Positions 732 through 38,918 of a stretch of 64,000 nucleotides of DNA are shown here, piece by piece. Both the position numbers and the translations under genes were made by a program. How positions within the stretch are numbered: the first letter of the stretch is position 1; the number at the start of each line of letters is the position of its first letter. Where the stretch lies: the NCBI RefSeq assembly GCF_016907715.1, contig NZ_JAFBCM010000001.1, positions 5,332,001 to 5,396,000 on the forward strand, written 5' to 3'. The notes under the pieces are model-generated. The model ran no database searches and was not told where the DNA came from. It saw nothing but the letters and a program-made list of their open reading frames with translations. The stretch is from Tenggerimyces flavus (GTDB lineage Bacteria; Actinomycetota; Actinomycetes; Propionibacteriales; Actinopolymorphaceae).

Positions 732-1031
732 TCAGAGGTGGCTGGCGACCAGCTCGTGGTCGAGCTCGACGAACTCGACGATCTCGTTCGCGAACTGGCC
801 CGCGATCAGCTTGTTGTAGACCTCCGAGGTCGTGTGCGCGTCGTAGGCGGCCTGGTCGGCGAAGTGCTCGACGAACAGCAGGTAGTCGGGCCGGTTCTTG
901 TCCCGGTACACGCGGAACGACACCGTTCCCGGCTCCTGACCAGGCCCGATCGGCGCGAACTCGCGGACGAGCTCCTCCATCGCAGCTTGGCGGCCGGGCT
1001 TGAGCTCGATCGGGAAGACCTTCACCAACAT
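732..1031 (-). CDS. Antibiotic biosynthesis monooxygenase (ABM) domain protein
   Basis: Small single-domain protein of 99 residues, the usual length for the dimeric ferredoxin-like ABM/YgiN fold. Recognisable blocks are the N-terminal KVFPIELKPG, the central FRVYRDKNRPDYLLFVEHF and the AYDAHTTSE segment. Members oxidise quinol-like or polyketide substrates without cofactor, or degrade haem; the substrate here is unknown. The start chosen is the ATG at 1029-1031, because GAGGAG (1041-1046) lies nine bases upstream; the ATG at 1052 would place that site inside the gene. It is divergent from the Ada/AlkA-like gene across about 170 bp. Confidence 0.75.
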   Translation of the reverse strand: MLVKVFPIELKPGRQAAMEELVREFAPIGPGQEPGTVSFRVYRDKNRPDYLLFVEHFADQAAYDAHTTSEVYNKLIAGQFANEIVEFVELDHELVASHL

Positions 1032-1199
1032 GGGGTGTTTCTCCTCATTCATCGGGGGGATCGAACGAGTCCCATCCTTCGACTTCGGCGGTCTCGGGTC
1101 TGGCCGGATCTGGTCCTGCAGTGGACGGATTCGGACCTACCGAACGCGAGGTCCGAATCCGGCTAGTCCGTTGTCGGTGCTCCCGGTAGAACGGACAGT

Positions 1200-2363
1200 G
1201 TGACCACGTACTCAGCCGTCCGAACGACCGGCATCTACTGCCGCCCGGGCTGCGGCGCGCGGCCTCGGGCGGAGAACGTCACGACGTTCGAGCTCGCCGC
1301 CGCGGCCGAGGCCGCCGGCTTCCGCGCGTGCCTGCGCTGCCGCCCGTACCGCGTGGCTGGCGAGGTCTCCCCCACGTCGCCCGAGCTGGTGTGCCGGGCC
1401 GTACGCCTCGTCCTCGACGGCGCACTGGACGACGCGACCGAGGAACAGCTCGGCCACCGGATCGGCGTCTCGGCCAGGCATCTGCGCCGGCTGTTCCACG
1501 AGCACCTCGGCGTGACGCCGACGCAGCTCGCGCTGTCGCGGCGGGCGCATTTCGCGCGCCGGCTGCTGGACGACTCCGACCTGTCGATCGCGCAGATCGC
1601 GTTCGCGTCGGGGTTCGGCAGCATCCGGCACTTCAACCGGGCGATGCGCGAGGTGTTCCGTTCGTCGCCGAAGGAGCTGCGCGACCGGCGCCGGCGGCAC
1701 GACCGGCTGCTGACGGACGGCGGGTTGGGGCTGCGGATCCCGTACGAGCAGCCGTACGACTTCGGCGCGGCGCTCTCGTTCCTCGCCGCGCGGGTCATCC
1801 CGGGCGTCGACTCGGTGGAGGACGGAACGTACCGCCGCACGATCATGCTCGACGGCGGGCCGGGCGTACTCGAGCTCAGCGTGGGCGGCCCGGACCATCT
1901 GGTGCTGGTGGCACATCTGCCTTACTGGGAAGGGCTTATCCACGTCGTCTCGCGGGCCGCGCAGGTGGCGGGCATCGGGCTGGAGCAGCCCGGGGCTTGG
2001 GGCTCGTTCGAGGCGGGTGTGCAGTTGCTGGCCGTGCAGTCGTCGGCGCAGTCCGGGCTCGGCGGTTTGGTGCGATCACTGGGCACCTTCGTCCCGGGCC
2101 TGACCCACGGTCTGGCCTACGCCTTCCCCTCGGCCGAGGTGGTAGCGAGCGCCGATGTGGAGGCGCTGGGACTGCCGGCGACGGTGCGGGAGTTGGCCGT
2201 ACGCGTACACGCGGGCGAGGTGCGGCTCGACGGCGCGGCCAGCCTGGACGAGCTGATCTCGTCGCTGCTGTCGATCCCCGACGTCGAGCCCACCACGGCC
2301 CACGCGTTGGCGACTCGTCTCGGCTATCAGGCAGCGGTACCGATCGGGTTGTCGATCACGTAA
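1200..2363 (+). CDS. Ada/AlkA-like protein, N-terminally short and with a degenerate glycosylase domain
   Basis: Fusion with the architecture of the actinobacterial Ada-AlkA adaptive-response proteins. Residues 1-50 are the zinc-bound methyl-acceptor domain (Cys14, Cys18, Cys44, Cys47, in IYCRPGC and RACLRC). Residues about 60-160 are an AraC-type double helix-turn-helix (SIAQIAFASGFGSIRHFNR). Residues about 175-387 align with AlkA 3-methyladenine glycosylase. Oddities: the GTG start at 1200 leaves out roughly 20 residues that normally precede AVRTTGIYCRP. In the glycosylase part, the usual helix-hairpin-helix LPGIGPWTA is IPDVEPTTA, and the region that should carry the catalytic Asp reads AAVPIGLSIT. 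Regulation by methylated DNA could survive while base excision probably does not. A decaying gene is the alternative. Confidence 0.75.
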   Translation: MTTYSAVRTTGIYCRPGCGARPRAENVTTFELAAAAEAAGFRACLRCRPYRVAGEVSPTSPELVCRAVRLVLDGALDDATEEQLGHRIGVSARHLRRLFHEHLGVTPTQLALSRRAHFARRLLDDSDLSIAQIAFASGFGSIRHFNRAMREVFRSSPKELRDRRRRHDRLLTDGGLGLRIPYEQPYDFGAALSFLAARVIPGVDSVEDGTYRRTIMLDGGPGVLELSVGGPDHLVLVAHLPYWEGLIHVVSRAAQVAGIGLEQPGAWGSFEAGVQLLAVQSSAQSGLGGLVRSLGTFVPGLTHGLAYAFPSAEVVASADVEALGLPATVRELAVRVHAGEVRLDGAASLDELISSLLSIPDVEPTTAHALATRLGYQAAVPIGLSIT

Positions 2364-2397
2364 CGCCAGCGGCCATGATCGTCATGACTCACACCGC

Positions 2398-3327
2398 TTA
2401 TCGCGGCAGGTAGTCCTCCCGCCGTAGTGCCTGGCCATCGATCACCGCTGCGCTGTAGATCCCCTGCCCTGGTGTCACGCCGTTCAGATCGGTGAACCCG
2501 TACTCCACCGAGAGTTGCTCCGCGTACATCGTCCGGCAGTTCCATCGCGCCACCTCGGGATCGCTCGCCAGCGCGACCACCGCGCGACCGGTGAAGCGCG
2601 GGCTCTCCGACCGGAGCCAGAAGCTGTGGCGGTGCTCCGGGTCGCGCCAGTAGTAGTCCTGCCAGTTCTCCTCGGTGACCTCGGCCCACTCGAGCATCTC
2701 CTCCGAGCGCAGCCACCCGGGCGAGATCGCCACGCCGGTGATCCCGTACGGCTTGCCGTCGGTGCCATAGCCCACAGCCAGCCGCATCACCGACTTCTTG
2801 CACAGGTCGTAGAACAGGTTGTCGTGGTACATGTCCGGCGCGCCGTCGGTGATGCCGATCATCAAGCCCTTCTGGCGTTTCGCCATCAGCGGCGCGACGA
2901 ACCAGCTGGTGATCACGTGCGTGTCGACCGCGTTGCGGAGGATCCCGAGCCGGTGCTCGAGATCGTGCTCCCAGAACGGCTTGGCGTGGTTGTCGGTCAG
3001 CTCCCCCTGCCCACCCCAGATGTCGTTGACCAGCAGGTCGATCCGCCCGTTCTGCTCCTGCTCGATCCGCGCGACCAGCGCGCGCACCTGCTCGATGTCC
3101 ATGTGGTCGACCTGCACGGCGATGCCGGTGCCGCCGGCCTCGTTCACGAGCTCGGCGGTCTCCTCGATGGTCTCCGGCCGGTTCAGCGGCGATCGCTGGG
3201 CGCGCGTCGTCCGCCCCGTGCAGTACACGGTCGCGCCCGCGACGCCGAGCTCGATCGCGATCCCGCGGCCGGCGCCGCGGGTCGCGCCGGTCACCAGGGC
3301 GACCTGTCCTTCGAGTGCTCTCGTCAT
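2398..3327 (-). CDS. Short-chain dehydrogenase/reductase, DHRS1-like
   Basis: NAD(P)-dependent oxidoreductase of 309 residues. The cofactor loop is TGATRGAG (13-20) and the catalytic pair is Tyr173/Lys177 (YDLCK). The usual NNAG motif is replaced by LLVNDIWGG, as in the longer DHRS1-like SDRs, and the protein is about 50 residues longer than a classical SDR at the C-terminus, also typical of that group. The ATG at 3325-3327 is chosen because residues 1-8 lead directly into the first beta strand. It is divergent from the acetyltransferase at 3373, with 45 bp between starts, and convergent with the Ada/AlkA-like gene. Substrate unknown. Confidence 0.8.
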   Translation of the reverse strand: MTRALEGQVALVTGATRGAGRGIAIELGVAGATVYCTGRTTRAQRSPLNRPETIEETAELVNEAGGTGIAVQVDHMDIEQVRALVARIEQEQNGRIDLLVNDIWGGQGELTDNHAKPFWEHDLEHRLGILRNAVDTHVITSWFVAPLMAKRQKGLMIGITDGAPDMYHDNLFYDLCKKSVMRLAVGYGTDGKPYGITGVAISPGWLRSEEMLEWAEVTEENWQDYYWRDPEHRHSFWLRSESPRFTGRAVVALASDPEVARWNCRTMYAEQLSVEYGFTDLNGVTPGQGIYSAAVIDGQALRREDYLPR

Positions 3328-3372
3328 GCCTGGGACGATGCCACTCCGCACCGACAGGTCTGGGAGGAAGCG

Positions 3373-3885
3373 ATGACGGGGGTCGAGGTCGTGGAGCTGG
3401 GCGATCCCGCGCGACAACGGGACGCCACCACCTTGGTGTTCGAGTACTTCGCGCTCACGGCCGTCGAGATCGACCGGCCGGTGCCGGAGCGGGTGACGGA
3501 TCTGCCCCCGAGCCTGCGGGTCGAGTGCGAGGACCTCGCGGCGGCCTATCCCGAGCCGGGGTTCGTGCTGGTCGCGTACGTCGACGGCGAGCCCGCCGGC
3601 GTCGTCGGACTCAAGGCACCAGGCGAGGTCAAGCGGCTGTACGTACGACCCGAGCACCGCTCGAACGGTGTCGGCCGGCGGCTGATGGAGCACCTGCATG
3701 AGCGCGCCGCGGAACGAGGCATGCGGCGGGTCGTCCTCGATGTCCTCCCCAGCCGGAAGCAGGTCATCGACTTCTACCGCCGCCTCGGCTACACCGACAT
3801 CGACCCGCCGCCGGGCGAAACCTTCCCGATGCTCTACCTGGCGCGAAATGTCGAGAACGGCGACGCCCGACCGTGTGAAGGGTGA
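3373..3885 (+). CDS. GNAT-family N-acetyltransferase
   Basis: Acetyl-CoA-dependent N-acetyltransferase of 170 residues. The acetyl-CoA pyrophosphate loop is in the segment LYVRPEHRSNGVGRRLM (RSNGVG is the Q/R-x-x-G-x-G/A motif), and the C-terminal VIDFYRRLGY is the conserved beta5-alpha4 region of GNAT enzymes. The ATG at 3373 follows GGGAGG at 3362-3367. It begins a short same-strand run with the RibD-like and YCII genes, 27 bp from the next gene. Acceptor substrate not recognisable. Confidence 0.8.
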   Translation: MTGVEVVELGDPARQRDATTLVFEYFALTAVEIDRPVPERVTDLPPSLRVECEDLAAAYPEPGFVLVAYVDGEPAGVVGLKAPGEVKRLYVRPEHRSNGVGRRLMEHLHERAAERGMRRVVLDVLPSRKQVIDFYRRLGYTDIDPPPGETFPMLYLARNVENGDARPCEG

Positions 3886-3912
3886 CAACCCCACCACGGG
3901 AAGGATCCAGCC

Positions 3913-4494
3913 ATGAGCCGCCGCATCGTCGTCGTCAACTTCCAGTCGCTCGATGGAGTCATCCAGTCCGTCCTCTTCCCCGACGAGGACACCGAGGGTG
4001 GCTTCGACCGTGGCGGCTGGGTGCCGCCGTACGTCGACGAGACCGTCGCACGCGTCATGAAGGAGGCGACGACGAAGGCGGGCGGCATGCTGCTCGGGCG
4101 GAAGACGTACGAGGCCTTCGCCTCCATCTGGCCGCACCAGTCCGAGGACGACCCCGCGGTCGCGGCGATGAACAGGATGCCCAAGTACGTCGCGTCCACC
4201 ACTCTCCGCGAGGGCACGTGGGCGCATACGGTCATCCTCGACGACGTGCCCGAAGCCGTCGCCAAGCTGAAGCACGAGGACGGCGCCGACCTCGTCGTCT
4301 TCGGCAGCGGCCAGCTGCTCCAGACGCTCCGCGAGCACGACCTGGTCGACGAGTACCAGCTGCTCACGTTCCCGATCGTCCTCGGCAAGGGCAAGCGGAT
4401 GTTCCCCGACGGTGCGCAGGCGAAGCTCGGCCTCGTCGACGTCGTGACAGCCGGCAGCGGCGTGGTCATCGCGACGTACCGCCCGACCAGGTAG
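3913..4494 (+). CDS. Dihydrofolate-reductase-like (RibD C-terminal domain) protein
   Basis: Protein of 193 residues with the fold of RibD C-terminal/dihydrofolate reductase domains. Visible landmarks are the N-terminal VNFQSLDGVIQ, the NADPH-contacting GGMLLGRKTYEAFASIW, VVFGSGQLLQTL (the GS-Q segment), and PIVLGKGKRMF. Such stand-alone proteins are common in actinobacteria and are not the essential folate enzyme; their substrates are unknown. The start is supported by GGAAGGA upstream. It is separated by only four bases from the YCII gene, so they are probably cotranscribed. Confidence 0.8.
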   Translation: MSRRIVVVNFQSLDGVIQSVLFPDEDTEGGFDRGGWVPPYVDETVARVMKEATTKAGGMLLGRKTYEAFASIWPHQSEDDPAVAAMNRMPKYVASTTLREGTWAHTVILDDVPEAVAKLKHEDGADLVVFGSGQLLQTLREHDLVDEYQLLTFPIVLGKGKRMFPDGAQAKLGLVDVVTAGSGVVIATYRPTR

Positions 4495-4498
4495 GAAG

Positions 4499-4828
4499 GT
4501 GCACATGACGCAGTACCTGCTCAGCATCTACCAGCCCGACCACGACCCGGTCGACGACGTCGGCCAGGTCGCGCGCGACGTCGACGCGGTCGAGGCCGCG
4601 GGCAAGGCCGCCGGCGCCTGGGTCTTCGCCGGCGGCCTCGGCTCGGGCGCGCGGGTCGTACGGAAGGGCCTCGTCACCGACGGCCCATACGTCGAGGGCA
4701 AGGAACACGTCGGCGGCTTCGTGGTCATCGACGTCGGCACGTACGACGAGGCCCTCGACTGGGCCAAGCGCCTGAGCGACGCCGCTACCCTGCCGGTCGA
4801 GGTCCGCTCTCTGGACTGGGCACGGTGA
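4499..4828 (+). CDS. YCII/DGPF-domain protein
   Basis: Small protein of 109 residues belonging to the YCII-related DGPF group. The signature is TDGPYVEGKEHVGGF at about residues 60-74, followed by the YDEALDWAKRL helix. These dimeric alpha/beta proteins often sit with ECF sigma factors or RibD-like enzymes and have no assigned reaction. The gene follows the RibD-like gene by four bases. Its 3' end overlaps the convergent transglutaminase-like gene by 44 bases. Confidence 0.85.
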   Translation: MHMTQYLLSIYQPDHDPVDDVGQVARDVDAVEAAGKAAGAWVFAGGLGSGARVVRKGLVTDGPYVEGKEHVGGFVVIDVGTYDEALDWAKRLSDAATLPVEVRSLDWAR

Positions 4829-19361: not shown

Positions 19362-20591
19362 ATGGCTGACGTGCCTCCCCACAGCGGCATCGTGACAACC
19401 GACGACGCACACCGTTATGTCGGCCGCAGCTGCTTTCGTACCGGTCCACCGCGCTACGTGGGCGCAGAGCTGGAGTGGCTCGTCGCCCCGGTCTCCGATC
19501 CGCACGAACGCGTCCCCCTCGACCAGCTCCGCGAGCTCGTCGAGGTCGCCGGACCACTCCCCGGCGGGGGACGCGTCACGTACGAGCCGGGCGGTCAGCT
19601 CGAGCTGAGCTCCGCTCCCGGCGACGGGCTCAACGACTGCTGGCGCCGCGTCGAGCTCGACACCCAGCACCTTCGAGCCGCGCTCGCGCGGGCGGACCTC
19701 ACCGTGCTTCCCTCCGCGATCGACCCCTACCGCGAGCCGCACCGCCAGCTCGTCGACGATCCGCGATACGCGGCGATGGAGGCGTACTTCGACCTCCGCG
19801 GCATCAACGGCCGGCTGATGATGTGCTCGACCACCGCCGTCCAGGTCAACCTCGACGCCGGCGCCGACTCCACCGACGTGGCCCGGCGCTGGAAGCTCCT
19901 CAACCGCCTCGGCCCGACGATGGTCGCGGCCTTCGCCAACTCCCCCATTCAGGCGGGTCGCGTGACCGGGTGGAAGTCCAGCCGCCAGCTGGTCTGGCAG
20001 CTGCTGGACCCATCGCGTACGTCGGTCCCGCTGGGCGACGACCCGGTCACCTCGTTCGCCGACTACGCGCTGGACGCCGCGGTCATGCTGCGACGGACGG
20101 CGACACCGCCGTGGACCGTCAACCCCGGCTTGTCGTTCCGCGAGTGGATCGAACGCGGCGACGATCGCCCGACCGAGGACGACCTGGAGTACCACCTCAG
20201 CACGCTGTTCCCGCCGGTCCGCGCGCGCGGCTGGCTGGAGGTGCGGTACGTCGACGCGCAACCGGACGGGCTGTGGCCGGTGCCCGTCGCCGTGCTCACC
20301 GCGCTCGTGGAGGACGCGCAGGCGAGCGCCGCCGCGCTCGAGGCCGTCGAGGGGCTCGGCGGGCGCTGGATCCAGGCCGCGCGCCACGGACTCGCGATCC
20401 CCGAGCTTGCCGCCGCGGCCAGCGCCTGCTTCGGCGCCGCGCTGGCGGCACTCCCCCGGATCGGCGCCGACCCGGCGCTGATCGACCTGGTCGGCGACTA
20501 CGCCGAACGCTACGTCGACCGGGCGCGATGTCCGGCCGACGACGCCCTCGACGAGGGCAGCTTCAGCCCCACCACGGAGGAGCTCGTATGA
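19362..20591 (+). CDS. egtA: Glutamate-cysteine ligase of ergothioneine biosynthesis
   Basis: EgtA, 409 residues, makes gamma-glutamylcysteine, the sulfur donor for EgtB. It has the GCS2-type core: VGAELEWLV near the N-terminus (residues 34-42), EPGGQLELSSAPG (substrate and metal-binding glutamates), and RLMMCSTTAVQVNLDAG. First gene of the operon; its TGA overlaps the ATG of egtB by four bases, which argues for translational coupling. Confidence 0.9.
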   Translation: MADVPPHSGIVTTDDAHRYVGRSCFRTGPPRYVGAELEWLVAPVSDPHERVPLDQLRELVEVAGPLPGGGRVTYEPGGQLELSSAPGDGLNDCWRRVELDTQHLRAALARADLTVLPSAIDPYREPHRQLVDDPRYAAMEAYFDLRGINGRLMMCSTTAVQVNLDAGADSTDVARRWKLLNRLGPTMVAAFANSPIQAGRVTGWKSSRQLVWQLLDPSRTSVPLGDDPVTSFADYALDAAVMLRRTATPPWTVNPGLSFREWIERGDDRPTEDDLEYHLSTLFPPVRARGWLEVRYVDAQPDGLWPVPVAVLTALVEDAQASAAALEAVEGLGGRWIQAARHGLAIPELAAAASACFGAALAALPRIGADPALIDLVGDYAERYVDRARCPADDALDEGSFSPTTEELV

Positions 20592-21940
20592 GCCTGCTCG
20601 ACGATCTGCCGCAACCCGCTTCGGAGGAGGTCGACGAGGACGCGTTCAAGCAGCTCGTCGCCGACGAGCTGGAACGCGTCCGTACCCGCAGCTTCGGCCT
20701 CACCACCGACGTCCTCGACGAGAGCGAGCTCACCGCCCAGCACTCGCGGCTGATGTCGCCGCTGGTCTGGGACCTCGCCCATGTCGGCAACTACGAGGAG
20801 CTGTGGCTGCTCCGCGAGGCCGCCGGCATCGAGGCGATGCGTCCGGAGATCGACGACCTGTACGACGCGTTCGAGCATCCGCGATCGGAGCGTCCGGCGC
20901 TGCCGCTGCTGAGCCCGACCGAGGCGCGCGACTACATCGGGCTGGTGCGGCGGAAGGTGCTCGACTCGCTCGCTGTGGCACGGTTGGATCCGTCGAAACC
21001 CTTGCTGGCCGACGGATTCGTCTATCGCATGGTCGTCCAGCACGAACACCAGCACGACGAGACGATGCTCGGGACGCACCAGCTCCGGCGCGGCGACCCG
21101 GTACTGCCTCCGGCGACCGACGGCCTGCCGGCACCGACCGACGGCTCGCTGCTGGCCGAGGAGGTACTGGTCGCGGGTGGTCCGTTCGTGATGGGCACGT
21201 CGACGGACCCGTGGGCGTACGACAACGAACGACCCGCGTACGTGGTGGAGCAGCCGTCGTTCTGGATCGACACGACGCCGGTGTCGAACGCGTCGTACCG
21301 CGCGTTCATCGAGGCCGGCGGGTACGACGACCCGCGCTGGTGGACTCCCGGAGGGTGGGACTGGCGGACGAAGTCGGGCAAGCGTGCGCCGGCGTTCTGG
21401 GTGCGGGAGGGGACGTCGTGGTTCCGGCGGCGCTTCGGCCGGCTCGAGCCGCTGCCGGACACCGAGCCCGTGCAGCACGTCTGCTACTTCGAGGCCGACG
21501 CGTACGCCCGATGGGCGGGCAAGCGGCTGCCGACCGAGGCGGAGTGGGAGAAGGCGGCTTCCTGGGATCCTGCTTCGCGGTCGAAGCGGCGGTATCCGTG
21601 GGGCGACGCGGCACCGACCTCCTCGACGGCGAACCTCGGTCAGCTGCGGTTTCACCCGACGGGGGTGGGATCGTTCCCTGCCGGCGCTTCGGCGTACGGG
21701 GTGCGGCAGCTGCTCGGCGACGTGTGGGAGTGGACGTCGACGTCGTTCACGGGGCATCCGGGGTTCTGCGTGTTCCCGTACAAGGAGTACTCCGAGGTCT
21801 TCTTCGGCGACGACTACAAGGTGCTGCGCGGCGGCTCGTGGGCGACCGATCCGCTCGCGGTGCGTAACACGTTCCGCAACTGGGACTACCCGATCCGACG
21901 TCAGATCTTCGCCGGCTTCCGCTGCGCCCGGACCGCGTAG
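20588..21940 (+). CDS. egtB: Hercynylcysteine sulfoxide synthase
   Basis: EgtB, 450 residues, is the non-haem iron, O2-dependent enzyme that joins gamma-glutamylcysteine to hercynine as a sulfoxide. The N-terminal DinB-like helical bundle carries the iron-binding histidines (VVQHEHQHDETM, residues 149-160). The C-terminal two-thirds is a formylglycine-generating-enzyme-type domain (FVMGTSTDPWAYDNERPAY, RLPTEAEWEKAA, GDVWEWTSTSF, VLRGGSWATDP). It overlaps egtA by four bases and its TAG is directly followed by the ATG of egtC. Confidence 0.93.
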   Translation: MSLLDDLPQPASEEVDEDAFKQLVADELERVRTRSFGLTTDVLDESELTAQHSRLMSPLVWDLAHVGNYEELWLLREAAGIEAMRPEIDDLYDAFEHPRSERPALPLLSPTEARDYIGLVRRKVLDSLAVARLDPSKPLLADGFVYRMVVQHEHQHDETMLGTHQLRRGDPVLPPATDGLPAPTDGSLLAEEVLVAGGPFVMGTSTDPWAYDNERPAYVVEQPSFWIDTTPVSNASYRAFIEAGGYDDPRWWTPGGWDWRTKSGKRAPAFWVREGTSWFRRRFGRLEPLPDTEPVQHVCYFEADAYARWAGKRLPTEAEWEKAASWDPASRSKRRYPWGDAAPTSSTANLGQLRFHPTGVGSFPAGASAYGVRQLLGDVWEWTSTSFTGHPGFCVFPYKEYSEVFFGDDYKVLRGGSWATDPLAVRNTFRNWDYPIRRQIFAGFRCARTA

Positions 21941-22675
21941 ATGTGCCGACACCTCGGCTACCTCGGCGCGCCGATTTCCCTTGCGTCGTTGGTGATGGCG
22001 CCCTCGCACTCGTTGTATGAGCAGTCGTGGGCGCCGCGGCGGCAGCGACACGGGACGGTGAACGCGGACGGTTTCGGGGTCGGCTGGTACGTGCCGTCGG
22101 TGCGGCCCGAGCCGGCGCGGTACCGGCGTTCGGTACCGATCTGGAACGACCCGTCGTTCGCGTCGTTGGCTCCGACCGTGTCGTCGGGATGTGTGGTCGC
22201 GGCGGTCCGTTCGGCGACCGCCGGGTATCCGGCCGACGAGTCGAACGCGGCGCCGTTCACCTTTGGGCGTTGGCTTTTCAGCCACAACGGGCGGGTCTCC
22301 GACTGGTCGCAGGTACGAAAGCTGCTGCCGGTTGACACCGAGGTGCACGAGTCGTTGGCGCCGGTCGACTCGGCGGCGCTGTTCGGGCTCGCGGTGTCGC
22401 TGTGGCGTGCGGACGCCTCGCTCGGCGACGGTCTGGTCGGCGTCGTGTCGGCCGTCCTCGCCGCTGGCGGAGGGCGATTGAACCTGCTCGCGTCCGACGG
22501 CTCCTCCCTGGCGGCGACGGCGTGCGGCGACACGTTGTTCGCGCTCACGCTGGCGGACGGTGTCGTGCTCGCATCGGAGCCGTACGACGATTCGCCTGCC
22601 TGGCAAGAGATTCCCGACAACTCGCTGGTCGAGGTCGACTCGGCCGGCCTGCGCGTGACTTCGATTGCCCTTTGA
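21941..22675 (+). CDS. egtC: Gamma-glutamyl hercynylcysteine sulfoxide amidohydrolase
   Basis: EgtC, 244 residues, is a class II glutamine-amidotransferase-fold (Ntn) hydrolase. It removes glutamate from the EgtB product. The nucleophile is Cys2 (MCRHLGYLGAP), exposed by loss of the initiator Met. Other markers are NADGFGVGWY and FSHNGRVSDW. It starts immediately after the egtB stop, with no separate leader. Confidence 0.92.
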   Translation: MCRHLGYLGAPISLASLVMAPSHSLYEQSWAPRRQRHGTVNADGFGVGWYVPSVRPEPARYRRSVPIWNDPSFASLAPTVSSGCVVAAVRSATAGYPADESNAAPFTFGRWLFSHNGRVSDWSQVRKLLPVDTEVHESLAPVDSAALFGLAVSLWRADASLGDGLVGVVSAVLAAGGGRLNLLASDGSSLAATACGDTLFALTLADGVVLASEPYDDSPAWQEIPDNSLVEVDSAGLRVTSIAL

Positions 22676-22688
22676 TGACGGAGGATTC

Positions 22689-23657
22689 GTGTCCCCTCGC
22701 ATAGACAAGCACCTGACCGACTCGGACCTCGCGGCCGCGTTGGCGCGCGACGTTCGGGCCGGTCTGCCCTCGACGCCGAAGGAGCTGCCGCCGAAGTACT
22801 TCTACGACGCTCGAGGCAGTGAGCTGTTCGAGGAGATCACGCGGCTGCCCGAGTACTACCCGACGCGGGCGGAACGTTCCATCCTGGAAGCGAGATCTGC
22901 GGAGATCGCGAAGGTGTCGGGTGCGGACACGCTGGTCGAGCTCGGGTCGGGGTCGTCGTCGAAGACGCGGCTGCTGCTGGACGGGATGCGGGCGACGGGG
23001 ACGTTGAAGCGCTACATCCCCGTGGACGTGAGCGATTCGGCGCTGCTCGACGCGGTGGGGCTGTTGGCCGAGGAGTATCCCTCGATCGAGCTGCACGGCG
23101 TGGTGGCGGACTTCGAGCACCATCTGGAGCAGCTGCCGCAGGAGGGCACGCGACTGCTCGCGTTCCTGGGTGGCACGATCGGCAACCTGGCGCCGGCGGA
23201 ACGGGCGGCGTTCCTCGCGTCGGTGCGCGAGCAGCTGTCACCGTCGGACTCGTTCCTGCTGGGCACGGACCTGGTGAAGCCGCGCGAGCGGTTGGTCGCG
23301 GCGTACGACGACGCGGCCGGCGTGACGGCGGAGTTCAACCGCAACGTGCTGCATGTGATCAACCGCGAGCTGTCCGCGGACTTCGACGTCTCGGCCTTCG
23401 CCCACGTCGCGGTGTGGGACGAGTCGGCCGAGTGGATCGAGATGCGCCTGCGTACGTCGACAGCACAGAGCGTGCGCATCGCCGCGCTGGATCTGGAGGT
23501 GTCGTTCGCGGCGGGCGAGGAAATGCGCACGGAGATCTCCGCCAAGTTCCGCCGCGAGGGGGTCGAGGCCGAGCTCGCCGCCGCCGGCTTCGCGCTGACC
23601 TCGTGGTGGACCGACGCTCCAGGAGACTTCGCGCTCTCGTTGGCGACGCCGATCTAG
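22689..23657 (+). CDS. egtD: L-histidine N-alpha-methyltransferase
   Basis: EgtD, 322 residues, trimethylates histidine to hercynine with three S-adenosylmethionine. SAM-binding segments are LVELGSGSSSKTRLLL and YIPVDVSDSALLDA, with LLAFLGGTIGN and the C-terminal sheet DLEVSFAAGEEMRTEIS characteristic of the family. The GTG at 22689 is chosen because GGAGG (22679-22683) precedes it and the length then matches known EgtD (about 320). It begins 13 bases after egtC. No egtE-like C-S lyase gene is present in the window. Confidence 0.93.
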   Translation: MSPRIDKHLTDSDLAAALARDVRAGLPSTPKELPPKYFYDARGSELFEEITRLPEYYPTRAERSILEARSAEIAKVSGADTLVELGSGSSSKTRLLLDGMRATGTLKRYIPVDVSDSALLDAVGLLAEEYPSIELHGVVADFEHHLEQLPQEGTRLLAFLGGTIGNLAPAERAAFLASVREQLSPSDSFLLGTDLVKPRERLVAAYDDAAGVTAEFNRNVLHVINRELSADFDVSAFAHVAVWDESAEWIEMRLRTSTAQSVRIAALDLEVSFAAGEEMRTEISAKFRREGVEAELAAAGFALTSWWTDAPGDFALSLATPI

Positions 23658-23661
23658 AACG

Positions 23662-24396
23662 GTGACCAGCCCGTTCGCCCACGCGGCGACTCCGTACGCA
23701 CAGTCTCGCCCGCGGTACGCCGATGCCGCGCTCGACGCGCTGACGCGCGAGCTCGGTCTGCGACCAGGCGACCGCGTCGTCGACCTCGGTGCCGGGACGG
23801 GAATCCTCAGCAGGCAGCTGGCCGAGCGCGGTCTGCGAGTGACCGCGGTCGAACCCGAGGCCTCGATGCGCGGCGACCTCAGCGGGATCACCGCAGTGGA
23901 GGGCACCGCCGAACGGACCGGTCTCCCCCACTGCTGCGCCGACGCCGTGGTCGCGGGGACCGCCTGGCACTGGTTCGACGCGCACCTGGCCACCCGCGAG
24001 GTCGCTCGGCTGCTGGCGACACCGGCGAGCGGCCTGGGCCTGCTGTGGAACGACTACGACGAGTCTGTCGAGTGGGTGGGCACGTACGCCCGGATCGCGA
24101 GCGACCGCAGGTCGTCCAGCTCGCCCAGCGCCCGAAGTGGCAGCTGGAAGGAGAGCTTCGACGAGGTGCCCGGTTGGGAGCCGCTGCGCGAGGCGCGGTT
24201 CCCGAACCCGTGGCCGACCACGCGACAAGGACTCGCCGATCGGCTCCTGTCGTCGAGCGTGATCTCCGGGCTCCCGCCGACGGGGCGAGCGGAAGCCCTG
24301 CGGGAGCTCGACGCACTGGTACGCCGCTTCGGGCTGAGCGAGGAGCTCGAGCTGCCGTACGTCACGTCCCTCTACTGGACGTTTCCCTCGACGTAG
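23662..24396 (+). CDS. Class I SAM-dependent methyltransferase
   Basis: Protein of 244 residues with the Rossmann SAM motif VVDLGAGTGILSRQL, acidic loop VEPEASM, and the VVAGTAWHWFD segment seen in actinobacterial UbiE/methyltransferase-11 proteins. The start is GTG, four bases after the egtD stop, so it is probably cotranscribed with the ergothioneine operon, but it has no PLP-lyase features and cannot replace EgtE. Substrate unknown. The 3' end overlaps the convergent MBL gene by 25 bases. Confidence 0.8.
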   Translation: MTSPFAHAATPYAQSRPRYADAALDALTRELGLRPGDRVVDLGAGTGILSRQLAERGLRVTAVEPEASMRGDLSGITAVEGTAERTGLPHCCADAVVAGTAWHWFDAHLATREVARLLATPASGLGLLWNDYDESVEWVGTYARIASDRRSSSSPSARSGSWKESFDEVPGWEPLREARFPNPWPTTRQGLADRLLSSSVISGLPPTGRAEALRELDALVRRFGLSEELELPYVTSLYWTFPST

Positions 24397-25088
24397 GCGG
24401 TCACCTCGTCGCGCGTGGCAGGCGGCTCGTGGGCGCCGACGTACCAGTCGAGATCCGGCGTCAGGAGCCGGCGCAGCAGGGCGAGGTCGGCGGTGTCGGT
24501 CTCCTTCCGCAGGTGGTACGGCGGCGGGTAGACGGCGTCGCCCAGCAGCACGACGCGGGACGTCGGGTCGACGACCACCAGCGAGTCCTCGCTGTGCTGG
24601 CCGCCGACGTGACGGAGCTCGACGCCGTTCGGCAAGGTCAACGTGTCGGCGAACGTCGTGGTCGGCGGCAGCACGCGGAAGGCCTCCCACGACGGCATCG
24701 CCCAGGCGCGGGCGCGGAAGCTCAGGGCGAGGCGGGGGTTGTCCTGTACGCACGCGCGCAGGTACGCGTGACTCCACGGCCGTTCGGCCTCCGCCGTCAG
24801 CACCGGGAGTGCGGCCTCGTGCGCGACGATCTCCACATCGGCCGGCCACGCGCACGCGCCCCACACGTGGTCCCAGTGCGAGTGCGTGTAGACCAGCCAC
24901 CGCGGCGCCGGCAGCCCGGCCGAGCGAAGCGCCTCCTGCACCACCAGCGCTCGGCCCGGGCTGTTGCCGGCGTCCACGACCACACTCCCCCGCTCGTCCG
25001 CGATCACGGTCACGCAGGGCTGCACGTTGTCCGGATCCGGGTCGCACGCAAACACGAACACCCGCCCCGCCAACAAAGAGAACGTCAC
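24372..25088 (-). CDS. MBL-fold metallohydrolase
   Basis: Metallo-beta-lactamase-fold hydrolase of 238 residues with the di-metal motif THSHWDH, a downstream VLLGDAV aspartate and VGAHEPP histidine. Nearby GQHSEDSLVVVDP places it with glyoxalase-II-like proteins; substrate unknown. The start proposed is the GTG at 25086-25088 (VTFSLLAGRVFVF). An ATG at 25130 is also in frame, but the 14 extra residues (MTDAIFATRPRLSQ) are encoded largely by the end of the MITE at 25102-25279, so they are probably not ancestral. Whether the insertion has created a new start is an open point. Confidence 0.75.
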   Translation of the reverse strand: MTFSLLAGRVFVFACDPDPDNVQPCVTVIADERGSVVVDAGNSPGRALVVQEALRSAGLPAPRWLVYTHSHWDHVWGACAWPADVEIVAHEAALPVLTAEAERPWSHAYLRACVQDNPRLALSFRARAWAMPSWEAFRVLPPTTTFADTLTLPNGVELRHVGGQHSEDSLVVVDPTSRVVLLGDAVYPPPYHLRKETDTADLALLRRLLTPDLDWYVGAHEPPATRDEVTAYVEGNVQ

Positions 25089-25101
25089 CTGGCTAAGCCT
25101 A

Positions 25102-25279
25102 GGTCGTGTTGCGAAAATAGCGTCGGTCATCGCGCGCAGCGCGATGGCGCGCGGCGCATCGCGCCTGGCTGGGTGTGGTGCAGGTCAAGGTCGTACTCGT
25201 CTGTACGTCCGCCGATCTGCAACGCAGCCAGGCGGGATGCGAGGTGTCGCGCGCCAGGCGATCTTTTCGCAACGCGGCC
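25102..25279. mobile_element. Fold-back MITE with IS5-like terminal inverted repeats
   Basis: Terminal repeats GGTCGTGTTGCGAAAA (25102-25117) and TTTTCGCAACGCGGCC (25264-25279) are imperfect inverted copies (14 of 16). Internal sequence continues the inverted symmetry, for example CGCATCGCGCCTGGCTG against the complement of CAGCCAGGCGGGATGCG (16 of 17). Both ends abut CCTAGG (25098-25103 and 25278-25283), consistent with a CTAG or TA target duplication. It encodes no protein. Ends of this type are seen in IS5-family (IS427-group) elements of actinomycetes; that family match is from memory. One end supplies an alternative start to the MBL gene, the other overlaps the stop codon of the next gene. 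Confidence 0.75.
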
Positions 25280-26526
25280 TAGGAGTCCCAGATCGCGCCG
25301 TACGCCGGGATCCCTCGACGTTCCATTCCCGACACCACCTGCCAGGTCAGCTTCTTGTTCGAGATGCAGATCACCGCCTCCGCGTCGAAGTCACGGTACG
25401 CCTCGTACGCCAGCGCGACCATGTCCGGCTTGCCGTGCGCCGAGGTGTCCCACACCAACGCGTCCGGTTGCACCGCGAAGATCTCGTCGACGAGCTCGTC
25501 CCCGTACGTCAACCGCGGGTTGCGCGTCGCCCACACCAACCGAGCCGGCACCTTCTGCGCCAACAGGTGCGGGAGGCACGGCCCGATCCCCGAGCCCGTC
25601 GCGACGTAGATCACCCGCGTGAACAACGTCTCGATGTTCGCCACGCCCGCCGTCGTGATCCCCTTCACCCACACGTGCGAGGGCAGGTCGTCGATGAACG
25701 AGCCCGTCCAGTCGCCCGCCCGCGAGATCGTCAGCCGGAAGCCGTGCTCGTCCGGCGCGGGCACGTTCGCGAACGAGTGCCACTCCAGCAACGGCCGCCG
25801 GCTGATCGCCGTCGACGAACCCGAGAACGGCGTCACCCCGTGGTCGAACCGGGCCAGCACCACGTGCGACGACGGTCGCGAGAGGTGCACCGGAACGCGC
25901 CGAAGTCTCAACCAGGGAAGGGCAACGCTGAACGTGACGACCGCCAGCACAACGATCCCCACCACGGACCCGCCGAGCACCGTGTGCACCCAGAACAGCA
26001 CCAGCGCTGCCCACCCGCCGAACCGGTGGATCTTCTCGAACGTGTCGTGGAACCGCGCGCGGAACGGCGGCGCCGCCGTCACGCTGATCCCGACGAGCAG
26101 CCCGACCAGGACGTACGCCACCACGCTCGTCGCGGTCGGCGGGGAGCCGAGCAGCGACACCACGTACGCCACGAACCACAGCGTCCCCGCGAGCGCACCA
26201 CCGACGTGCAGTCCGCCGAAGTGGTAGACCTTGCCGAGCGTCCATCGCAGCTTCAGCGGCCAGCTCGTCGGCACACTCGTCGCCAACCGGAACAGCAGGT
26301 TGATCACGTACTGCTGTCGCACCAGTATCGCCAACGCGAGGTTGCCGAGCACGAGATTGGCCATGCTCTGTGGGGAGACGCCGGGCAGGAACACGACGTT
26401 GACGAGCAGCACGAACGCGGCCAGCCGGTTGTGGTGCATCAGCCAAGGATGCTTGAAGAAACGCCGCAAGGCGGAGGGCTCCGCCTGGGTGCGCGCAGCG
26501 GGTCGGGAGACAGTCAACACGCTCAT
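25279..26526 (-). CDS. Six-helix membrane ferredoxin/flavo-reductase (TmpL C-terminal-like)
   Basis: Integral membrane protein of 415 residues. Six hydrophobic segments are visible between about 35 and 220 (for example AAFVLLVNVVFLP, GGLHVGGALAGTLWFVAYVV, FGGWAALVLFWVHTVLGG), with histidines near helix ends reminiscent of ferric-reductase-like domains. The C-terminal half is a ferredoxin-NADP-reductase-like unit with the nucleotide loop YVATGSGIGPCLPHLL. It is translationally coupled to the upstream adenylation gene (four-base overlap). Fungal TmpL/TmpA proteins combine an AMP-binding domain, six helices and an FAD/NAD domain in that order. This gene equals the second part. Electron acceptor unknown. 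Its stop codon lies on the MITE border. Confidence 0.75.
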   Translation of the reverse strand: MSVLTVSRPAARTQAEPSALRRFFKHPWLMHHNRLAAFVLLVNVVFLPGVSPQSMANLVLGNLALAILVRQQYVINLLFRLATSVPTSWPLKLRWTLGKVYHFGGLHVGGALAGTLWFVAYVVSLLGSPPTATSVVAYVLVGLLVGISVTAAPPFRARFHDTFEKIHRFGGWAALVLFWVHTVLGGSVVGIVVLAVVTFSVALPWLRLRRVPVHLSRPSSHVVLARFDHGVTPFSGSSTAISRRPLLEWHSFANVPAPDEHGFRLTISRAGDWTGSFIDDLPSHVWVKGITTAGVANIETLFTRVIYVATGSGIGPCLPHLLAQKVPARLVWATRNPRLTYGDELVDEIFAVQPDALVWDTSAHGKPDMVALAYEAYRDFDAEAVICISNKKLTWQVVSGMERRGIPAYGAIWDS

Positions 26527-28106
26527 GACGCCACCGCCACCCGCGCCGCCAGCGGAGCCGCCTCGGCCAGCGCGAGCAGAGCCCGCTTGTCGACCTTGCC
26601 GCGGCTGGTCTCCGGCAGCGACCCGACCGCGTACACCGACGACGGCACGCAGTAGTACGGCAGCGCCGACTCGACCGCCGCCCGCGCCGCATCCACGTCG
26701 ACGTCGGCGGGCGTGACGAACGACACCAGGTTGCGGTCGTCCAGCTTCAACGTCACCGCCCGCGCGCATCCCGGAACGCCTTCCAGGACAGAAGAAACCG
26801 AGTCCAGCTCGACCCGGAACCCGCGCACCTTCACCTGGTCGTCGGTACGACCGAGATGCTCCAGCTCGCCGTCAGGTGTCCACCGACCGAGATCTCGGGT
26901 ACGGAACATGAGACGACCGCCGCCAAGGAACGGATCGGGCGCGTACCGCTCGGCGTTCAGCGCGGGGTTGTCGAGGTACCCGGCCGAGACGCAGTCGCCA
27001 CCCGCCCACATCTCCCCCACCTCGCCGATCGCGCAGAGCTTCCGCTCGTCGTCGAGCACGTACACGGTGTTGTTCGGGGTCGGCCGCCCGATCGACAACC
27101 GGATCGCCGACGGGTCGTGGCGCTGCATCGTGTTCACGATCGTGGTCTCGGTAGGCCCACAGGAGTTGAAGAAATCGCAGCGCGACGCCCACCGGTCGGC
27201 GAGCGGGCGTGGGCACGGCTCGCCCGCGACAGCGACGACCTTCACCTGGGAGCACTCGGCCGGATCGACCACGGAGAGCACGGTCGGCGTGGCGATCAGC
27301 ACGTCCGCCATCCGGGCCGCGGCGCCGATGTCGGTGCCGCGGATCACCAGCGTCGCGCCGTGGCTGAGGCAGCCGAGGATCTCCCACGCCGCCATGTCGA
27401 ACGCGACGTTCAGCAGCTGCGCCACCCGCCAGCCCGGCCGGATCCCCAGCGACCCCGGCGCGGTGAGCAGGATGTTGGCGACGTTGCGATGGGTGACCTT
27501 GACCCCGTTCGGCTTGCCGGTCGTGCCGGAGGTGAAGAGCACGTAGCACCCGTCGGCCGGCTCGCTCGCCACTTCTGGCGCCGTCGACGCGCCGGGCGAC
27601 GGCGTGTCGAGTGCCCACACGTGCGGACCTTCCGGCACCCGATCGAGGTGGGCGGACGTCGTCAGGATCACGCGGGTGCGCGCGGTCGCGACGACGTGGG
27701 CCAGCTGTGGCAGCGGCGTGATGCCCACGTCCTGCGGAACGTACGCGGCACCCGCCTTCAACGTGCCGAGCAGCCCGACCAGCATCGGGATCGAACGGCG
27801 TACGAACAGTGCCACGTTGTCGCCGGGCCGGATGCCCGCCGTGACGAGCTGGTGCGCCACCGCGTTCGCCTGCCGGTCGAGCTCGCCGTAGCTGATCGTG
27901 TCGCCCGTGCCCACATCGATCGCGGCCACGGCATCGGGTGCCGTGGCCGCGTGGGCTTCGAACGCGCGATGGACGAGGCCGTACGGAACCTCGACGCTCG
28001 GGCCGGTGCCGAACCGTTTGACCAGCTCGCGGTCCGCGGGAGCGAGCTGGTGGAGCAGCGGCTCCGGCCACGTCTGCCTCGGCGTAGCACGAGACGGTGA
28101 CTGCAT
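26523..28106 (-). CDS. Stand-alone NRPS-type adenylation enzyme (TmpL N-terminal-like)
   Basis: AMP-forming enzyme of 527 residues with the adenylation core motifs in order: SYGELDRQANAVAHQL (A2 region), LFTSGTTGKPNGVKVTH (A3), FNSCGPTETTI (A5), FRTRDLGRW (A7), GRTDDQVKVRGFRVELDSV (A8), and the A10 lysine in TSRGKVDKRAL. There is no carrier (PCP) or condensation domain, so the activated acid must be passed to another protein or released. It overlaps the membrane reductase by four bases, implying one functional unit. The ATG at 28104-28106 is chosen because GAAGGGGG precedes it; an upstream ATG adds 21 unrelated residues. Substrate cannot be read reliably from the pocket. Confidence 0.85.
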   Translation of the reverse strand: MQSPSRATPRQTWPEPLLHQLAPADRELVKRFGTGPSVEVPYGLVHRAFEAHAATAPDAVAAIDVGTGDTISYGELDRQANAVAHQLVTAGIRPGDNVALFVRRSIPMLVGLLGTLKAGAAYVPQDVGITPLPQLAHVVATARTRVILTTSAHLDRVPEGPHVWALDTPSPGASTAPEVASEPADGCYVLFTSGTTGKPNGVKVTHRNVANILLTAPGSLGIRPGWRVAQLLNVAFDMAAWEILGCLSHGATLVIRGTDIGAAARMADVLIATPTVLSVVDPAECSQVKVVAVAGEPCPRPLADRWASRCDFFNSCGPTETTIVNTMQRHDPSAIRLSIGRPTPNNTVYVLDDERKLCAIGEVGEMWAGGDCVSAGYLDNPALNAERYAPDPFLGGGRLMFRTRDLGRWTPDGELEHLGRTDDQVKVRGFRVELDSVSSVLEGVPGCARAVTLKLDDRNLVSFVTPADVDVDAARAAVESALPYYCVPSSVYAVGSLPETSRGKVDKRALLALAEAAPLAARVAVAS

Positions 28107-38385: not shown

Positions 38386-38523
38386 GTGTCGCGGATCCCC
38401 GTTCGTTCGCCCGTTGGCGGACAGCCTAGGCGCGGCGCAGGCGTACGGACGACGGAGGTCACGACACGCCAGATCTTGCGGTCCAACGACTTGTCGGACC
38501 CCGCATGTAGTGTCTGTCGAGCT

Positions 38524-38695
38524 GATGGTTCGACCGGCTCGCCAGGCCGGTCGAGGCAAGAGGGAACCCCGTGCGAATCGGGGACTGCCCCGCAGCGGTG
38601 AGCGGGAACGAACGCCGTCACCATCCAGCGAGCCCCAATCGCTGGAGGGTCGAGCACTGGGTGTCACCACGAGCCTGGGAAGCGACGGCTATTAG
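38524..38695 (+). promoter_or_regulatory. Cobalamin (B12) riboswitch upstream of nrdA
   Basis: Clear cobalamin aptamer. The core is AGGGAACCCCGTGCGAATCG (38561-38580), then CTGCCCCGCAGCGGTGA (38585-38601), and the B12 box GCCTGGGAAGCGACGGCT (38673-38690). Expression stops when adenosylcobalamin is bound. The 223 bases from here to the nrdA GTG hold no gene. They carry a GC hairpin (38765-38772 with 38781-38788) and a CTCTCC (38856-38861) that can pair with the Shine-Dalgarno GGAGAG (38907-38912), so control of translation is a plausible expression platform. The stretch 38386-38523 upstream holds the divergent promoters; no clear -35/-10 pair could be fixed. Confidence 0.9.
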
Positions 38696-38918
38696 GCCAC
38701 CCCCGCCGACCTTCCCCCTCCGGTCGGTGGTCTGCCCGCGAGTCCGAAGACCTGCCATCGGTGTGCGCCCGCGAGGACAAGCGGGCGCGCAAGGTGCCGA
38801 GCCTCGCGGGAGGGCTCAGGGACGCGCAGCGCCGACCCCTCGGTCGGGCGCTGCCCTCTCCCCTGCCGCGAAGTCGAAGCCGCGAACGCCAGACCGCAGC
38901 TCGCGAGGAGAGAGTTCC

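Follow-up and report, generated by a model that had tools for sequence, protein, structure and literature searches.

Two overlapping genes for an adenylation enzyme and a membrane reductase

Within a 64,000-nucleotide stretch of the Tenggerimyces flavus genome (contig NZ_JAFBCM010000001.1, positions 5,332,001 to 5,396,000; called the window here), two genes designated A and B lie on the minus strand and share four bases. Gene A encodes a stand-alone amino-acid adenylation enzyme and gene B a membrane protein with a reductase domain that would bind, by its motifs, flavin adenine dinucleotide (FAD) and nicotinamide adenine dinucleotide (NAD). An earlier reading made from the sequence alone (the sequence-only reading) had presented the pair as a bacterial counterpart of the fungal proteins TmpL and TmpA; its placing of the two genes and of their overlap was borne out, and A and B are likely to be translationally coupled through the ATGA at which they meet. 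The features on which the analysis draws are the following.

26523 to 28106, minus strand: gene A, stand-alone nonribosomal peptide synthetase (NRPS)-type amino-acid adenylation enzyme, 527 residues (TIGR01733, PF00501)
25279 to 26526, minus strand: gene B, six-helix membrane protein with a FAD/NAD reductase domain, 415 residues (predicted NADPH-oxidase fold)
26523 to 26526, minus strand: ATGA, the start of B on the stop of A (4-base overlap)
27381 to 27401, minus strand: FDMAAWE, core of the adenylation pocket of A (D237 corresponds to PheA D235, W241 to PheA W239)
26206 to 26208, minus strand: H107 of B in helix 3, candidate inner-haem ligand (invariant; SpNOX H69 by position)
26026 to 26028, minus strand: H167 of B in helix 5, candidate inner-haem ligand (invariant; SpNOX H129 by position)
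25771 to 25782, minus strand: WHSF, FAD-binding motif of B, resembling the EWHPF of NADPH oxidases (aligns with LEWHPF of NOX2)
25579 to 25596, minus strand: GSGIGP, NAD(P)-binding motif of B (identical to the TmpL motif; PMC2766074)

Gene A scores 341 bits against TIGR01733, for which the curated cutoff is 317, and also matches PF00501; among solved structures it comes closest to NRPS adenylation domains, for example those of linear gramicidin synthase. The Pfam and NCBIfam profiles place neither a carrier nor a condensation domain in it, in agreement with the carrier-less enzyme of the sequence-only reading. The protein is far removed from other adenylation domains, with 925 bits set against 355 for the next one in the same genome, and no match to it was found on plasmids at 1e-80. 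Assigned through the known PheA numbering rather than by superposition, the specificity code of the window enzyme is DMWIAASIVK, and the pattern DMW[I/V]AA[C/S/A/G]IVK fits each of the 80 complete A proteins in the comparison, that of the window among them. The pocket of the fungal TmpB protein is reported to have D238, W242, C307, G309, I315 and K495 at matching places, C307 being equivalent to PheA A322 (PMC4804170). The D and W of A are conserved and match D238 and W242 of TmpB; by sequence, the likeness would extend to I, K and, in 43 bacterial A proteins and one partial one that have cysteine at the PheA-322 position, to C, and the G of TmpB was also counted among the matches. The likely substrate of A, judged from this pocket, is a hydrophobic amino acid. 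We note that at two Streptomyces loci gene A is in pieces (L074, 6413-7926; L078, 6238-7920), which may reflect decay or sequencing error.

Gene B matched no Pfam or NCBIfam family. Its AlphaFold2 model (26 relatives; mean predicted local distance difference test score 86.8, predicted template modelling score 0.81) places a flavin/NAD reductase domain after six membrane helices, as the sequence-only reading had described. The closest full-length solved fold is that of the Streptococcus NADPH oxidase (NOX) SpNOX (Z 23.9 over 353 residues, 12% identity), and human NOX2 follows with Z 22.0 over 380 residues; identities to NOX structures are in the range of 12-14%. As predicted, B would therefore combine the two parts that make up the NOX fold, namely a six-helix ferric-reductase domain and a dehydrogenase domain of the ferredoxin-NADP reductase type. 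By direct sequence comparison, B matches human NOX2 weakly in a region that includes the FAD motif (LLEWHSF..GDWT in B, LEWHPF..GDWT in NOX2), and the W, H and F of WHSF are invariant across 29 relatives of B. The predicted fold together with this motif suggests that B binds flavin.

The likeness of B to SpNOX and the NOX/DUOX proteins, which lies in the six helices, the FAD/NAD domain and the GDWT and WHxF motifs shared with NOX2, ends at the published FAD and NADPH patterns and at the outer haem. SpNOX holds its inner haem through H69 and H129 and its outer haem through H83 and H142 (PMC11564096). In the 83 aligned B proteins that are linked to A, H102, H107, H160 and H167 are invariant, and the last three are so too in 11 relatives encoded apart from A (solo B proteins). 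The pair expected for the outer haem was not found in B, the helix-3 partner being absent and H181 of helix 5 not being conserved; from the sequences, B may thus carry a single haem on the cytosolic side. The filters of Hajjar et al. 2017 (PMC5676040) for bacterial NOX sequences include two His-X12/14-His pairs, in helices 3 and 5. The helix-3 pair occurs in only 1 of the 83 A-linked and none of the 11 solo proteins, the helix-5 pair in 61 and 2 of them, respectively, and the published FAD and NADPH patterns are both absent from all 83 A-linked proteins. B fails all of these filters, and that definition therefore excludes it from the NOX proteins in spite of its fold. A further peculiarity is W413 (window 25282-25290), third from the end of the protein and nearly invariant among relatives, where SpNOX has F397, the replacement of which by tryptophan inactivates that enzyme (PMC11564096). 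Hydride transfer may be gated differently in the B family, this tryptophan being common to nearly all of its members.

Recurrence of the gene pair, its third gene and solo copies of B

A scan of one genome per species gave 310 candidate relatives of B, among which 80 loci were kept on B similarity alone; A lies immediately upstream of B in every kept locus whose contig extends far enough. With each locus counted once, the first searches yielded 82 A-B loci, 80 of them with an enoyl-CoA hydratase gene, designated E, directly after B (the gap being mostly 13-180 nucleotides). Three further A-B-E loci from a draw over the whole phylum and from a phage collection bring the total to 85 distinct A-B loci, 83 of which have E directly downstream; the two that lack it are the window and L094. 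In 73 of 83 loci, the first four bases of B are also the last four of A. Between any two of A, B and E, pairwise divergence is correlated with a Spearman coefficient of 0.90-0.93, a level that none of 500 permutations attained, suggesting that the three sequences evolve as one unit. The survey of genomic context called for by the sequence-only reading has brought out a recurrent linkage of A and B. An A of some ordinary clade, unlinked to B elsewhere, would by that reading's own account have refuted it; this linkage, the distance of A from other adenylation domains and the joint divergence of A, B and E show the opposite and support its interpretation. Its description of a two-gene system stands for the A-B pair but not for the complete set, the usual third gene having been overlooked because this window is without it.

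Hosts of the operon include Streptomyces, Microbispora, Streptosporangium, Micromonospora, Catelliglobosispora, Glycomyces, Amycolatopsis, Actinophytocola, Longimycelium and Catenulispora; the locus counts are not counts of independent events, since most loci are from Streptomyces. The distribution is patchy, a full-length B having been found in two other genomes of 295 drawn evenly over the phylum and in none of seven genomes from the same family as that of the window. No fusion of A and B was seen in the bacterial loci examined, no relative was found in viral contigs, and a search of the open-licence literature found no description of a bacterial A-B-E operon. A 940-codon frame in genome G080 that resembled an A-B fusion was rejected, as it is the B frame remaining open through A in an ordinary A-B-E operon. 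A 4.9-kb record from human faeces deposited as 'Bacteriophage sp.' (L145, MT838715.1) carries a bacterial A-B-E operon at 889-4593, with identities of 57, 55 and 59% to window A, window B and a Streptomyces E, respectively, the same core of the A specificity code, a GC (guanine plus cytosine) content of about 60% and a sigma-factor-like gene on the opposite strand. The record is probably mislabelled, and it suggests that the operon is present outside the high-GC actinobacteria sampled. At two Micromonospora loci (L065, 4499-6243; L091, 2258-4248) the genes immediately upstream of A encode a response regulator and a histidine kinase, suggestive of two-component control at these sites.

Gene E scores 255.9 bits against PF00378, and the models nearest to it are those of short-chain enoyl-CoA hydratases, none of which it matches above the curated cutoff. 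Residues E109 and E129, which occupy the sites of the family's two catalytic glutamates, are invariant in 16 E proteins. Gene E is absent from beside B in the window, and its best relative in the same genome is 2.1 Mb away (257 bits).

The sequence-only reading had noted the lack of a carrier protein near the pair, and this holds over a wider range: no phosphopantetheine-binding (PP-binding) domain is encoded in the window, and the nearest in the genome is about 90 kb away. That distance counts against a rather improbable alternative, in which A is an ordinary NRPS enzyme that loads a carrier encoded elsewhere while B and E tailor the product. The clearly NRPS-type character of A, the many carrier domains of most operon hosts and the known existence of stand-alone adenylation domains that act in trans (PMC2823734) would all suit it. 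Further evidence against it comes from PP-binding domain searches in seven operon-bearing genomes of various genera and then in four Glycomyces genomes. Three of these Glycomyces genomes, which carry the operon, have only one PP-binding domain apiece; in two of them it is encoded in an 81-codon frame, as the acyl carrier protein of fatty-acid synthesis would be. A is therefore independent of an NRPS partner in general. Transfer of the activated acid to coenzyme A (CoA) would be the simplest way to connect A with E.

Copies of B also occur without A or E. One actinobacterial genus (f3/g5) has several such copies, two of its genomes holding both kinds, and single copies are found on Pantoea and cyanobacterial plasmids; no AMP-binding enzyme was seen among the scanned neighbours of solo B genes. 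When 32 B proteins were placed in a tree, all seven solo copies from f3/g5 fell into one clade (100/100) and the Pantoea B grouped with that of the L145 operon (98/96), although bootstrap in this tree was unsettled and its distant sequences sit on long branches. On the cyanobacterial plasmids (L105, 6475-9078; L106, 9893-12608), a distant solo B (about 31% identity) is followed by another protein, which in L105 reads like a membrane-fusion export subunit of the HlyD type.

Some of these settings bear on the proposal that B is a ferric reductase and A the maker of a siderophore part, the pair serving iron uptake. The Pantoea copy lies several kb from an aerobactin-type cluster, another solo B adjoins a gene for a periplasmic binding protein of a kind often used for iron, and the fold of B is shared by NADPH oxidases and ferric reductases. 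The operon itself, in contrast, is adjoined by no conserved siderophore, transporter or carrier gene, and upstream of A the iron-regulator box, like the zinc, Rex and CatR boxes (four tested), scores no better than shuffles. With the outer-haem histidines missing, there would moreover be no electron path to the outer face by the NOX route. We regard a role in iron reduction as unlikely.

Relation to fungal TmpL and TmpB and the proposed route

In fungi, sporulation, redox state or virulence is governed by TmpL, TmpB and TmpA. TmpL consists of an adenylation domain, six helices and a FAD/NAD domain with the motif GSGIGP, has no thiolation or condensation domain and was reported to be restricted to filamentous fungi; its isolated FAD/NAD domain binds flavin (PMC2766074). 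TmpB has the same layout, resides in the plasma membrane and is required for normal sporulation; the activity proposed for it is the adenylation of a hydrophobic amino acid, followed by oxidation of that acid at the reductase part (PMC4804170). The parts of the NPS12 group 1 proteins TmpL (Alternaria, Aspergillus fumigatus) and TmpB (AN9129 of Aspergillus nidulans) and of ChNPS12 and the order in which they are joined are those of bacterial A and B, which differ in being two overlapping genes where the fungal proteins are one fused polypeptide. Because that fusion is absent, we term the pair a split counterpart of TmpL and TmpB rather than a member of the fused family. The domain order claimed by the sequence-only reading is thus correct for TmpL, and for TmpB as well, but not for TmpA, which is the reductase part alone and in this resembles the solo B proteins of f3/g5, Pantoea and the cyanobacterial plasmids; its neighbour AfeA is 4-coumarate-ligase-like, unlike A. 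Genomes that hold solo B copies parallel the fungi in which TmpA stands beside TmpB.

The third gene has a fungal parallel, too. An enoyl-CoA hydratase/isomerase gene adjoins tmpB and is conserved among several Aspergilli (PMC4804170), as a hydratase gene adjoins nearly all bacterial pairs other than that of the window. The AN9129 cluster was annotated independently as consisting of two genes, AN9129 and AN9130 (PMC3689640), the second of which would be this hydratase gene. In the work of Bushley and Turgeon (2010), stand-alone adenylation domains from two Salinispora species and Hahella fall within the fungal NPS12/ETP module 2 clade (bootstrap above 80%; PMC2823734). They resemble A in standing alone, and the available part of that paper mentions neither a membrane partner nor a hydratase for them. 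This placement, the identity of the GSGIGP motif in B and TmpL, the matching pocket residues and the same type of third gene all argue against an independent pairing of an adenylation domain with a ferric-reductase-like protein in bacteria and fungi. Convergence of this sort, for which one may cite that both domain types are common and mobile and that the fungal comparison was made without sequence alignment, appears very improbable to us. We are highly confident that A-B is of a common kind with TmpL and TmpB, and common descent with the fungal fusion would account for the likeness.

The fungal phenotypes also raise the prospect of a redox-balance device, B regulating membrane redox state or reactive oxygen and A being a partner that senses ATP and amino acids without a biosynthetic role. 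Raised reactive oxygen and sensitivity to H2O2 in TmpL mutants (PMC2766074) and the NADPH-oxidase fold of B speak for it; the tmpB mutant of Aspergillus nidulans, on the other hand, is not sensitive to oxidative stress (PMC4804170), B lacks the published NOX motifs and the outer haem, and the linkage to an enoyl-CoA hydratase that looks catalytically complete by sequence points to metabolism. A purely regulatory function of this kind has, in our view, little chance of being correct.

The explanation that we favour, and to which we attach an evenly balanced degree of belief, is that of a split bacterial TmpL/TmpB (NPS12-type) counterpart, normally an A-B-E operon, that works in the following way. 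Enzyme A would activate a hydrophobic L-amino acid as its adenylate and pass it to CoA or another small thiol, with no need for an NRPS carrier. At the cytosolic face of the membrane, B would take electrons from NAD(P)H and hand them on, via FAD and no more than one haem, to an acceptor within the membrane or on its inner side; the activated acid, or a product derived from it, would thereby change its redox state. E would add or remove water at an alpha,beta-unsaturated thioester, and the output may be a small, diffusible, amino-acid-derived metabolite, as was proposed for the fungal sporulation signal. We are less certain of the exact chemical route than of the explanation as a whole, and we are guessing at the CoA step as well as at the redox substrate and the product. 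Taken one step further, bacteria and fungi may have in common a carrier-free amino-acid pathway in which an adenylation enzyme, a single-haem reductase of NOX fold and a hydratase make a diffusible compound that the fungal fusion and its neighbour gene turn to use as a developmental signal; this extension is put forward tentatively, and we think it rather less probable than not.

Several observations weigh against the split-counterpart explanation or parts of it. The homology to the fungal proteins is drawn from published descriptions and matching motifs, not from a fungal alignment. The formation of a CoA ester by A is conjectural, and the binding of haem by B is read from its histidines, for the inner site only. 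The tryptophan at the place of SpNOX F397 means that fast oxidation of NAD(P)H by B is not assured. As the window has no E, this gene must be dispensable there or its product supplied by another of the genome's 11 crotonase-family genes. Finally, the existence of solo copies indicates that B can work without an adenylation partner.

If the relation to TmpL and TmpB is correct, bacteria would provide a simpler setting for finding out what chemistry of this type makes. The split operon offers separately expressible enzymes and a nearly fixed specificity code, E narrows the chemistry to unsaturated thioesters, and the Glycomyces hosts have almost no other carrier-dependent biosynthesis, such that the product may be findable by comparison of extracts. 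The gene beside tmpB in Aspergillus would likewise be recast as a likely partner rather than a bystander.

Other genes and features of the window

A gene for a metallo-beta-lactamase-fold hydrolase adjoins B in the window (24372-25130); it was considered as a substitute for E and rejected, having no relative at other A-B loci. Close to the pair lies an ergothioneine-like set (19362-23657) of egtA-, egtB- and egtC-like frames followed by the gene for an EgtD-type histidine methyltransferase (PF10017; 22665-23657), which is not found near A-B at other loci. A cobalamin riboswitch is present at 38509-38773 (RF00174, 74.4 bits).

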